This document shows positions 5,086 through 45,916 of a stretch of 64,000 nucleotides of DNA, piece after piece. Source of the DNA: an uncultured Collinsella sp. (GTDB taxonomy: Bacteria; Actinomycetota; Coriobacteriia; Coriobacteriales; Coriobacteriaceae). The notes under the pieces are model-generated. The model was not told the origin of the DNA, did not search any database, and was given only the letters and a program-made list of their open reading frames with translations. A program made the position numbers and the translations under genes. The number at the start of each line of letters is the position of its first letter. The stretch's first letter is position 1. Where the stretch lies: contig CANRSF010000003.1 in assembly GCA_947642445.1 (NCBI GenBank), forward strand, positions 62,001 through 126,000, written 5' to 3'.

Positions 5086-5382
5086 CGCACTCTTGATGCG
5101 GACGGGTGCGCGTTCTTGCGCGCCGTCGATTTTGGCAAGAACGCCAATGCAGATGCCCTTCTCCGAGCGATCGGGGAGGGGCATTTTATTGTGAGTTTGA
5201 GTGGCACGTCCGCCGAGGTTCCTGATAGTTCGCGCTATCTTATCGCCGACTCCAGCAAAATCGGCAAGCGTGACTTCTGCACGTTCTGCCGCCTGGACAA
5301 TTTGGACGCCGTGGTGTGCGAGCCGGATATTGACGATGAGGATCGCGCCGCCATCGAGGAGCATACGCAGGTTATCTGCTAG
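5086..5382 (+). pseudogene. remnant of a DeoR-family regulator C-terminus
   Basis: After the HPr stop codon the same frame stays open for 98 codons. From about 5225 the residues match the C-terminal effector domain end of DeoR-type sugar regulators (YLIADSSKIGKRDF, then NLDAVVCEPDIDDED). There is no HTH, no good ribosome-binding site and only a TTG at 5116, so this is read as the decayed tail of a repressor once located after or within the ptsH region. A short expressed protein is possible but less likely. Decisive check: compare with the same locus in related genomes for a full-length deoR gene. Confidence 0.5.
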
Positions 5383-5531
5383 CGAGTGCTGCGGGAGATA
5401 CTTTTGCCCCTGCCATTGCGGAGTATTTACATCATCACGACGCATAATAGGTGCGCGTGCAGATTGCAGGTTCCCCTGTGCGATGAGTTGCAGCTGTTTT
5501 ACGGTGAGGCATAGCATCCGTTATGCGTAAA

Positions 5532-5649
5532 GCTCGGTATTACTGTATGTCTCAACCATTGCAATGGTCGGTATTTTTGTAACTATAAGCTCATTTAAAG
5601 CTCGGTATTTTTGTATTATTAGATATATCTGAAGGTCGGTATTTTTGTA
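5532..5649 (+). repeat. four-unit array with exact 34-bp period
   Basis: TCGGTATTTTTGTA (first unit TCGGTATTACTGTA) starts at 5534, 5568, 5602 and 5636, exactly 34 bases apart. The 20 bases between copies are AT-rich and unrelated. The last copy ends 32 bases before the ATPase start codon, so the array occupies its promoter/leader. It resembles an iterated protein-binding site more than a CRISPR: units are too short and no cas genes are present. Confidence 0.8.
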
Positions 5650-5681: not shown

Positions 5682-7052
5682 ATGTTTAAACGGAAGGCAT
5701 ATGATCGTCTGCAGGAGTGGAAAGAACGCTCGCAAGGGCGCACTGCGGTGCTTATTGAGGGTGCAAGACGCGTTGGCAAAACGACGCTCGTCAAGTGCTT
5801 CGCGCAAAATGAATACAAGGATTATCTGTACATTGACTTTTCGGCTGCTAGCAAAGCCACGCTCGATATATTTCTGAACCATCGTGAAGATGTCAATCTT
5901 TTTTTACGCATGCTTCAGCTGCAGTATGGTAAGGCCCTCGAACCGAGAGAGTCGCTGGTCATTTTTGATGAAGTGCAGCGGTTTCCCATCGCGCGCGAAT
6001 ACATAAAGCATCTTGTAGAAGACGGCAGATTTGATTACATCGAGACAGGCTCTCTTGTCTCCATCAAAAAGAATGTCGATAGCATTGTCATACCGTCAGA
6101 GGAAGAAAGAATCCCTCTCGAGCCCCTCGATTTTGAGGAGTATCTTTGGGCGACCGGAAAAGATCTTTATGCAGAAGAGATCCGTAAAGCGCGCGAATCT
6201 CGGACCGCGCTTCCGGACGGCGTTCATGCGACGTGCATGAGATTATTTGATGAGTATATGCTTGTCGGTGGTATGCCTCAGTCGGTCGACTCCTTTGTGG
6301 CAGAGAATGATTTTAGAGGATGCGACAGGGTTAAACGGCAGATTATCGCACTGTACAGGGAGGACATTGCCAAGTTTGGAGGTTCGGACGCTAGACGTGC
6401 GCGGGCGGTTTATGACGATATTCCGGGTCAATTATCTGCGGCAAATAAACGGTTCAAATTTGACAGCGTGGAGAAGGGGTCCCGTTTTGAGACATATGAG
6501 TCGGCGTTAATCTGGCTTGAGGATGCGCGACTGATTAACCGTTGCTATTTATGCAGTGATCCGAGCGTGGGTTACCGCCTGCACGAGGACGCGTCTTCGC
6601 TTAAATGCTATATGGCGGACACGGGATTGCTCGTGAGCTTGGCGTTTGATGATGGTCCGGACCTTATGGATGTTCATAGAGACATTCAATTTGGAAGAAT
6701 TTCAATTAATAAAGGAATGCTAATCGAGAACATCGTGGCGCAGCAGCTTAAGAGTCTGGGGCATTCGCTTTTTTATTACAGCTGGCAGGAGCCTTCCAAA
6801 ACAGAGGGGAGTCGGCCCAGAACGCGTGAAATTGATTTTCTTGTTTCGCGCGGCTTTGAAGACGCGGCTGGAAAACCGCGGGTCACTCCTGTTGAAGTTA
6901 AATCTTCCAAATCGTATTCAACAATCTCGCTTGACGATTTCGGCAGACGATTCGAACGACGAGTCGGAGAAGAGATAGTTCTTCACCCAAAACAGCTCAG
7001 GGCTGAAGGGCATAGGATATATCTACCTCTGTATATGACGATCTTTATCTGA
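5682..7052 (+). CDS. ATP-binding protein, AAA domain plus DUF4143
   Basis: A 456-residue protein. The N-terminal AAA domain has Walker A GARRVGKTT (27-35), Walker B LVIFDEVQ (about 90) and the sensor-like IETGS. The C-terminal DUF4143 region ends in a PD-(D/E)xK nuclease-like signature (REIDFLV followed by PVEVKSS). Such proteins are common in anaerobes, have no agreed function and are often suspected of defence or mobile-element roles. The gene is clearly more AT-rich than its neighbours, suggesting transfer. It stands alone, preceded by the 34-bp array and followed by the 80-bp palindromic array. A second family member lies at 44747-45916. Confidence 0.88.
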   Translation: MFKRKAYDRLQEWKERSQGRTAVLIEGARRVGKTTLVKCFAQNEYKDYLYIDFSAASKATLDIFLNHREDVNLFLRMLQLQYGKALEPRESLVIFDEVQRFPIAREYIKHLVEDGRFDYIETGSLVSIKKNVDSIVIPSEEERIPLEPLDFEEYLWATGKDLYAEEIRKARESRTALPDGVHATCMRLFDEYMLVGGMPQSVDSFVAENDFRGCDRVKRQIIALYREDIAKFGGSDARRARAVYDDIPGQLSAANKRFKFDSVEKGSRFETYESALIWLEDARLINRCYLCSDPSVGYRLHEDASSLKCYMADTGLLVSLAFDDGPDLMDVHRDIQFGRISINKGMLIENIVAQQLKSLGHSLFYYSWQEPSKTEGSRPRTREIDFLVSRGFEDAAGKPRVTPVEVKSSKSYSTISLDDFGRRFERRVGEEIVLHPKQLRAEGHRIYLPLYMTIFI

Positions 7053-7116: not shown

Positions 7117-7333
7117 TCTCGATCTGTAACAGCTAGGGGCGAAAACACAAGCTAGTTGTTACAGATTTAGATTGAGAGGGTTGGCTCGTGTGTTCATCTC
7201 GATCTGTAACAACTAGGACCCAAAAACTTAGCTAGATGTTACAGATTGAGACTGAGAGGATTGCCCTGTGTGTTCATCTCGATCTGTAACAGTTGGGGCC
7301 GAAACCGCGGGTCAGATGTTACAGATCGAGACA
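7117..7333 (+). repeat. three-unit 80-bp array of inverted repeats
   Basis: GATCTGTAAC begins at 7121, 7201 and 7281, an exact 80-bp period. Each unit is itself an inverted repeat: CTCGATCTGTAACA on the left and TGTTACAGATYGAG on the right, with a divergent middle of about 25 bases. The third unit is a perfect 14-bp palindrome arm pair. The joining stretch (about TGTGTTCATCT) is also shared by units two and three. The array lies between the convergent ATPase and lacG genes. Confidence 0.85.
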
Positions 7334-44566: not shown

Positions 44567-44621
44567 TTAGGGTCTGAGATTTCGGCTCTATAAATAACGT
44601 TTTTGAACTGGGCTACTAAAA

Positions 44622-44736
44622 GATTGTGGAAAACACTACTACAAGATTATGGAAAACACTACTACAAGATTATGGAAAACGCTACTGCAAGATTATGGCA
44701 AATGATACTATACGATTATGGTAACAGCGTTATAAG
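44622..44736 (+). repeat. five tandem 23-bp repeats
   Basis: GATTATGG (GATTGTGG in the first) begins at 44622, 44645, 44668, 44691 and 44714, exactly 23 bp apart. The middle units are nearly identical over all 23 bases (GATTATGGAAAACACTACTA then CAA); the last one diverges. The array ends about 10 bp before the ATPase start codon and must overlap its promoter or leader. Confidence 0.9.
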
Positions 44737-44746
44737 GGGCGTTGAT

Positions 44747-45916
44747 ATGGCCGAGTACATTAACAGGGATTTGCATGAGTTGCTCATTCGCATGGCGGGT
44801 TGGTTTCCTGTTGTGTCGTTGACGGGGCCTAGGCAGAGCGGTAAGTCTACGCTGGTTAGGCATGCCTTTCCCGACTATTCCTATGTCACGCTTGAGGACC
44901 CCCAAACGAGGCGCGCGGCCTTGGAGGATCCGGTGAGTTTTATCCGCAACCGAAAGGGCGGACTCATCATCGATGAGGCGCAATACGCCCCGGATTTGTT
45001 CTCGATGATTCAGGTTGTTTCGGATGAGCGGGGAGACGCCGGTCAATACATCCTTACGGGATCGCAAAACTTTTTGATGATGAAAAGCATCGGCCAGTCT
45101 CTTGCCGGGCGAGTCGGGATCTTAAAATTGCTGCCATTTTCGTTTCGAGAAGCGGAGAGGGGCCAGCAGGGGCAGTTGGAAGTGGATTTGTTTGCGCTCG
45201 AAGGGGGATACCCTCGCCTGCGTTCCGCCGGAATGCCGTCCTCGGTTTATTTCCCCAGCTATATTGATACCTATGTTGAGCGCGATGTTGTGGGCTTGCT
45301 TGACGTGCGCAATAAAGCAGAGTTTCATAAGTTTCTGTCCATAATTGCCCAGAGCGCCGGTGCTCTCATTAATATATCTTCGCTTTCTCGAGATACGGGT
45401 GTGAACGTATCGACCATTAAAAGCTGGTTGTCTATCCTGGAGCAGAGCTACCTGACGTTTTCACTGCAGCCCTATTATGCAAATGCCAGGAAACGTTTGA
45501 CTAAAACGCCCAAGCTTTATTTTTACGACACGGGGCTGCTCTGCTACTTGCTCAAAATTGGATCACTGGAGCAACTTTTGGAGAGCCCTTATCTGGGGGC
45601 AGTTTTCGAAAACCTCATCGTTTCCGAAACGGCGAAGAGCCATCTCAACGTGGGCGAGAATCCCGAGTTGTATTTCTATAGGGACGACGGCAAGCGAGAA
45701 ATCGATTTGCTCGACTGCACAAACTCAGGGAGTCCCAAGGCTATCGAAATAAAATCATCCAGAACGTATCACGATAAGTACGCCCGCCATTTACAGGCTG
45801 TATGCGATGAGATCGACATTGCAAAAGATGCGCGCTATGTTGTGGCCCGCGTGGATTCAACGTATGAGTCGAAAGACTGTAGCGTGGTCTCGGCGCGTGA
45901 TTGGCTTTTGCGATAA
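44747..45916 (+). CDS. ATP-binding protein, AAA domain plus DUF4143 (second copy)
   Basis: A 389-residue protein with Walker A GPRQSGKST (about 27-35), Walker B GLIIDEAQ, sensor LTGSQNF and a C-terminal nuclease-like signature REIDLLD followed by AIEIKSS. It is the same family as 5682-7052 but only distantly similar to it. The ATG at 44747 is used; the frame is open further upstream through the 23-bp repeats but there the codons simply repeat. It is a stand-alone gene with its own terminator, AT-richer than neighbours. Function unknown. Confidence 0.88.
   Translation: MAEYINRDLHELLIRMAGWFPVVSLTGPRQSGKSTLVRHAFPDYSYVTLEDPQTRRAALEDPVSFIRNRKGGLIIDEAQYAPDLFSMIQVVSDERGDAGQYILTGSQNFLMMKSIGQSLAGRVGILKLLPFSFREAERGQQGQLEVDLFALEGGYPRLRSAGMPSSVYFPSYIDTYVERDVVGLLDVRNKAEFHKFLSIIAQSAGALINISSLSRDTGVNVSTIKSWLSILEQSYLTFSLQPYYANARKRLTKTPKLYFYDTGLLCYLLKIGSLEQLLESPYLGAVFENLIVSETAKSHLNVGENPELYFYRDDGKREIDLLDCTNSGSPKAIEIKSSRTYHDKYARHLQAVCDEIDIAKDARYVVARVDSTYESKDCSVVSARDWLLR

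Follow-up and report, generated by a model that had tools for sequence, protein, structure and literature searches.

A stretch of 64,000 nucleotides from the genome of an uncultured Collinsella sp., referred to here as the window, carries a gene for a DUF4143 ATPase with a short motif repeated at regular steps just in front of it, raising the questions of what the array is for, which protein reads it, and whether it is peculiar to this gene. Comparison with homologous loci suggests that the repeats probably serve the ATPase gene as operators, forming a cognate array through which the gene would regulate itself.

The repeated unit is a 14-bp motif, TCGGTATTTTTGTA, and the step between neighboring copies is exactly 34 bp throughout (Table 1). 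An earlier reading, made from the sequence alone, described four exact copies at this step; the step holds, but three copies are exact and the first has two mismatches. Its placement of the end of the array 32 bp before the start codon agrees with the ATG at 5682. Conserved letters extend slightly past the 14 bp, with TAAAGC, TAAAGC, and TGAAGG preceding three of the motifs. The three-copy score is 42 of a possible 42, compared with a maximum of 33 over 1,000 dinucleotide shuffles, which rules out a chance origin, as that reading had also maintained. When the whole window was scanned, the two top places were this array and a second one, with a 23-bp period, in front of a second DUF4143 ATPase. 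The 13-mer core of TCGGTATTTTTGTA has no other site at ≤1 mismatch in the 2.02-Mb genome, and the 23-bp motif CAAGATTATGG has scattered matches with 1 to 2 mismatches and nothing better, so a genome-wide regulon is ruled out for both motifs. Among 43 genomes of the genus, the array recurs with its spacers in one other, before a 99%-identical ATPase, and a search of these genomes for a homing target or free-standing array found exact pairs solely in front of the ATPase. Viral contigs searched with two array patterns for phage decoy arrays gave zero matches. A CRISPR array was rejected as a candidate: it requires repeats of ∼21 to 48 bp and unique spacers of ∼26 to 72 bp, whereas here an imperfect motif of ∼14 bp alternates with spacers of ∼20 bp that are sometimes identical.

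Table 1. Positions of the two arrays, their ATPase genes, and flanking elements, counted from the first nucleotide of the window
Feature	Position	Strand	Description
deoR C-terminal fragment	5230-5396		just upstream of the TCGGTATTTTTGTA array
Repeat copy 1	5534..5547	+	TCGGTATTACTGTA, 2 mismatches to TCGGTATTTTTGTA
Repeat copy 2	5568..5581	+	TCGGTATTTTTGTA, exact
Repeat copy 3	5602..5615	+	TCGGTATTTTTGTA, exact
Repeat copy 4 (last)	5636..5649	+	TCGGTATTTTTGTA, exact; 32 bp to start codon
First DUF4143 ATPase, cognate to the TCGGTATTTTTGTA array	5682..7052	+	AAA_14 (aa 21-155), predicted winged-helix-like segment (~aa 234-311), DUF4143; PDC-S01
Three ~80-bp units with palindromes	7117-7332		right after the first ATPase; TCTCGATCTGTAACA...TGTTACAGATCGAGA
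Second array, 23-bp period, ~5 units	44613..44721	+	CAAGATTATGG core at 44642, 44665, and 44688
Diverged units of the 23-bp array	44619 and ~44711	+	within 44613..44721
Second DUF4143 ATPase, cognate to the 23-bp array	44747..45916	+	23% identical to the first ATPase

The earlier identification of the gene as a DUF4143 ATPase is supported by its AAA_14 and DUF4143 domains and by a full-length match to the PADLOC PDC-S01 models (E 3.7e-103), which places it in the PDC-S01 (AAA_14-DUF4143) family. PDC-S01 is a single-gene phage defense candidate of PADLOC and the fourth commonest defense across prokaryotes (29,494 bacterial and 9,986 archaeal systems); most PDCs await validation (PMC12988326). 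The Walker A/B residues K33, D96, and E97 are intact in 127 of 127 proteins, and the PD-(D/E)XK-like active site of the C-terminal DUF4143 part is almost as well kept (E383 in 125, D385 in 126, E405 in 126, and K407 in 127 of the 127). In the AlphaFold model (pLDDT 94.8, pTM 0.93) the ATPase part is N-terminal, and the secondary structure of the model displays a predicted helix-turn-helix-wing pattern at about residues 234 to 311. The closest solved folds to residues 1 to 322 are PABY2304 (2QEN; Z 16.6, rmsd 4.5, 267 aligned) and SSO1545 (2FNA; Z 15.2, rmsd 4.5, 265 aligned), followed by CED-4, plant NLRs, and Orc1/Cdc6, and the MalT-related structure 8BOB is among the Foldseek matches. None of the VIA-align matches listed covers most of the C-terminal domain, which may nonetheless have a known fold, and a search by sequence for solved structures of the ATPase returned weak, meaningless matches alone.

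Arrays of this kind are widespread. The upstream regions of homologues had been proposed as the check on the first array, and periodicity was found in most of them: a strong array stands upstream in 141 of 189 loci, the bacterial ones coming from several phyla and at least one being archaeal. About one-quarter of the loci have no strong array, some of these having palindromes and some nothing clear. Strong three-copy arrays are present upstream in 58 of 79 cross-phylum loci, every one at a period of 33 to 34 bp, and the controls (shuffles, 0/79; gene-internal, 0/79; far upstream, 2/74; downstream, 3/73) include none at that period. A separate Coriobacteriia set has 48 of 54 loci at a period of 32.5 to 34 bp. 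In 123 nonredundant arrays, spacings of 32, 33, 34, and 35 bp occur 12, 178, 86, and 1 times, respectively, with 109 loci keeping one single spacing and three as the usual copy number. Candidatus Methanomethylophilus (L112) is a strong archaeal example, with a period of 34 and three copies, and arrays also occur on one plasmid each from Vibrio (32 bp) and Segatella and on phage-labeled fecal contigs. Homologues within the genus that are 29 to 52% identical have periodic repeats before the start codon but with different letters (AAGTTCTGGATATCGTGCA, ATAAACCTGCGGAAATGCA, CCGGAAAAGCTGCAAA, CCAATTTTTGTAT, AAATCTCTGCATTTCAT, CACATTTTCCGATGG, and GTATTTCAAGTAC), and one genome has 7 DUF4143 loci, the motifs of the array-bearing ones all being different. 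The 23-bp period belongs to a distant subfamily that includes the second ATPase of the window, and the two period classes are 11 bp apart (34 − 23), i.e., one helical turn.

Other arrangements occur at the remaining loci. Three distant DUF4143 ATPases, L010 (G000:C11), L222, and L243, have long near-perfect palindromes (16 to 25 scored pairs) and no direct repeats; these palindromes enclose or adjoin a TATAAT-like box, and a palindrome at a promoter is the usual form of an operator. Loci L226, L188, L191, and L203 have mixed arrays, in which two copies run in the same direction at a distance of about 32 bp and another is inverted (e.g., TACGTCCTTATT, TACGTCCTTATT, and TAAGGACGTAAT), a form intermediate between the direct and the palindromic. 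In the subfamilies of L303 (on a Vibrio coralliilyticus plasmid), L192 to L199, and L205, the units are palindromes or close to it (TTTTATGCGCATAAAA, GTACTTGAAATAC, and ACCGATTTCGGT), and the spacing is still 32 to 33 bp.

Motifs and spacers have evolved differently. Within arrays, identity is ∼0.83 for the motif and ∼0.39 for the spacers; between orthologues at 80 to 92% protein identity the values are 0.87 and 0.40, and at 70 to 80% they are 0.71 and 0.35. Spacers are saturated between close relatives that still share the motif, showing that selection acts on the motif. Spacers are identical or near-identical in L021, L007, L112, and L181, and near-identical genes in relatives (L134, L135, and L136) carry 23-bp arrays of 5, 4, and 3 units, from which it follows that arrays gain and lose whole units. 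After such a duplication, the motif and period alone are retained while the spacers drift.

The protein reading the motif is indicated by how motifs are distributed among ATPases. Motif similarity is 11.5 of 12 at ≥90% protein identity, 9.8 at 70 to 80%, and 8.8 at 60 to 70%, whereas paralogues in the same genome score 7.0 to 7.5 against a shuffled baseline of 6.9. A Mantel test of motif against protein gives an r of 0.36 (permutation maximum, 0.18), and its repeat in held-out loci gives an r of 0.26 (permutation maximum, 0.19). These comparisons show the motif tracking the clade of the ATPase and not the host genome. Because paralogues in one genome differ and close relatives elsewhere share a motif, the reader of the motif must travel with the ATPase, and the array-binding protein is probably the ATPase itself.

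Covariation also suggests which domains might read the motif. With sliding windows over 66 cross-phylum loci, the GTG half of the motif covaries with residues 253 to 281 (partial r 0.45; permutation maximum, 0.26) and the other half with residues 367 to 413 (0.25; permutation maximum, 0.17). In half-samples of the cross-phylum set, the right motif half goes with 253 to 281 in 200 of 200 and the left half with 360 to 415 in 184 of 200. The domain windows were chosen on this discovery set, and the combined set is significant but contains the discovery data. In held-out Coriobacteriia, the helix at 253 to 281 gives a p of 0.05 with the right half (43 loci) and a p of 0.40 for the 32 anchored loci, other windows being higher, and a left-half peak near 361 to 367 is barely above the permutation 95% level; with anchored motifs (32 held-out loci of one class), neither this peak nor the helix signal persisted. 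Held-out motifs were aligned through a transferred profile, and several appear shifted by 1 to 3 bases. Since the held-out set gave no clear repeat, the domain assignment is a lead and not a result.

The position of the array relative to promoter-like boxes may fit an operator. Across the 123 loci, promoter-like −10 boxes are 3 to 5 times commoner than expected at the end of the array, falling in the last spacer 16 times (3.4 expected) and just after the last copy 19 times (6.0 expected); in the window, no good sigma-70 match was found on the + strand. Several ATPase molecules would occupy adjacent sites on the array, one to each unit of 33 to 34 bp, and would cover or flank, and so control, the promoter of their own gene, probably through a cooperative and ATP-tunable self-repression. 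Negative autoregulation is a reasonably likely effect of the array, and activation of the gene instead is possible. A motif private to each gene would insulate the paralogues, up to 7 of which share one genome. An ordered array of protein sites is well supported, because the period is kept across phyla, the motif is kept while the spacers are free, and the 34- and 23-bp classes differ by one turn. The sequence-only reading had put forward cooperative binding on one DNA face; the ordered array stands, but not the single face, as periods of 33 to 34 and 23 bp each leave a rotation of ∼50 to 85 degrees per copy (at 10.5 bp per turn). Speculatively, this twist could suit a helical or ring-like assembly better.

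Several other accounts of the array were weighed. That it is a functionless tandem duplication made by slippage, or phased bent DNA, is scarcely credible: the identical spacers and differing copy numbers of some relatives do attest to whole-unit duplication, but the disparity between motif and spacer identity within arrays, and the occurrence of one period with unrelated motifs across phyla, argue against it, and plain slippage is ruled out by the motif-specific conservation between orthologues. The earlier dismissal of slippage is thus half right, in that the motif is kept by selection and yet whole units have been duplicated, as spacers and unit counts attest. The same reading's suggestion of a replication- or partition-like iteron is not supported. 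The array does look like iterons, and Orc1/Cdc6 initiators likewise join an AAA+ domain to a winged helix, but the arrays are chromosomal and belong to single genes, with up to 7 per genome and different motifs, and the sites occur nowhere else in the genome (apart from the scattered imperfect matches of the 23-bp motif), so that a Rep/iteron or ParR/parC-like site is extremely improbable. A replication iteron or Orc1-type origin would come with a linked origin, a rep function, and one locus per replicon, and the loci do not have this form. A regulator encoded by the host might instead bind the arrays, but nothing beyond the array itself was found in its favor; it would predict the opposite of the observed likeness between motif and protein, since motifs are unrelated among the paralogues of a single genome and shared by ATPases of one clade in different genomes, and it is highly improbable.

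Two further accounts were considered. The last copy is often 10 to 25 bp from the start codon (<25 bp in 58 of 123), and one copy may hence be transcribed, in keeping with repeats that work in the mRNA leader, e.g., as sites for RNA-binding proteins or small RNAs. Promoter-like boxes, however, are often 3′ of the last copy, which would leave whole arrays upstream of the transcript, and the one-turn difference between the period classes and the promoter palindromes of other subfamilies also speak for DNA, making a role in the leader very unlikely. The array might instead be a storage site and sensor at the enzyme's own locus, where an inactive oligomer of a STAND ATPase-nuclease is parked and then freed upon disturbance (phage takeover or DNA breakage), regulation and defense being one switch. 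The STAND-like fold, the PD-(D/E)XK-like residues intact in nearly all of the 127 proteins, the membership of a defense-candidate family, and the privacy of the array to its gene are all consistent with this, but simple autoregulation accounts for the same anatomy in fewer steps, and the defense activity of PDC-S01 itself has candidate status (PMC12988326); we regard it as quite unlikely. A broader synthesis, in which the protein would be a DNA-reading STAND ATPase-nuclease, the array would act at once as an operator, a mark of self, and a store for the inactive enzyme, the winged helix and the nuclease-like domain would each read one half-unit, and coevolution of motif and protein would insulate paralogues, is rather unlikely in full.

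An autoregulatory operator, the preferred reading, has precedents. Direct-repeat operators through which a gene regulates itself are already known, as in plasmid iterons, ParR-parC, and MalT boxes. RepA iterons and ParR-parC sites, located on plasmids that carry rep or par functions, are direct repeats at a fixed helical spacing, and they overlap the promoter from which the protein that binds them is expressed. The ATPase arrays are similar in having direct repeats with fixed helical spacing on the promoter side of the gene, but differ in serving one chromosomal gene with many paralogues and in combining a fixed cross-phylum period with a changing motif. MalT, a STAND ATPase that oligomerizes, binds direct-repeat arrays and reads a fixed host regulon via a LuxR-type C-terminal domain. 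Here, in contrast with MalT-type regulators, the motif lies beside the gene and is private to it, and assignment to that type was rejected, the LuxR-type domain being absent and the C terminus being DUF4143 with its PD-(D/E)XK-like site. Orc1/Cdc6 initiators combine AAA+ with a winged helix and bind origin repeats, whereas the ATPase system has no origin, a C-terminal nuclease-like domain, and narrow private arrays. The fold likeness to the archaeal STAND/AAA+ ATPases SSO1545 and PABY2304 stops before the C-terminal DUF4143 part, and we know of no repeat array for either. The operator of a type II toxin-antitoxin system was also rejected; such systems are two-gene operons repressed by their own product, and the ATPase stands alone in the window.

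What appears to be new is that genes of a very common candidate defense family combine a period that stays fixed from phylum to phylum, archaea included, with a motif private to each gene. No description of such ATPase promoter arrays, and no mention of a promoter array for DUF4143 or PDC-S01, was found in the literature searched, a limited collection, and the term "direct repeat" was not found in PMC12988326. The conserved promoter array makes the mode of action of PDC-S01 directly testable, in terms of what binds it, what releases the binder, and whether such release sets off defense. Natural motif-protein pairs, each private to its gene, are numerous, and as a data set they could be used to work out how these ATPases recognize DNA and to build insulated regulators.

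The surroundings of the first ATPase have some features of their own. The deoR fragment in front of the array has a second copy 12 kb farther upstream (G000:C3:55429; ∼91% identity), which suggests that a rearrangement brought the ATPase here. Downstream, the next long open reading frame is a convergent 6-phospho-beta-glucosidase-like gene. The core 13-mer of the ∼80-bp units that directly follow the ATPase has 84 occurrences genome-wide (≤1 mismatch) in ∼20 clusters, mostly as opposed pairs ∼38 bp apart, as in a REP/BIME-like dispersed element.
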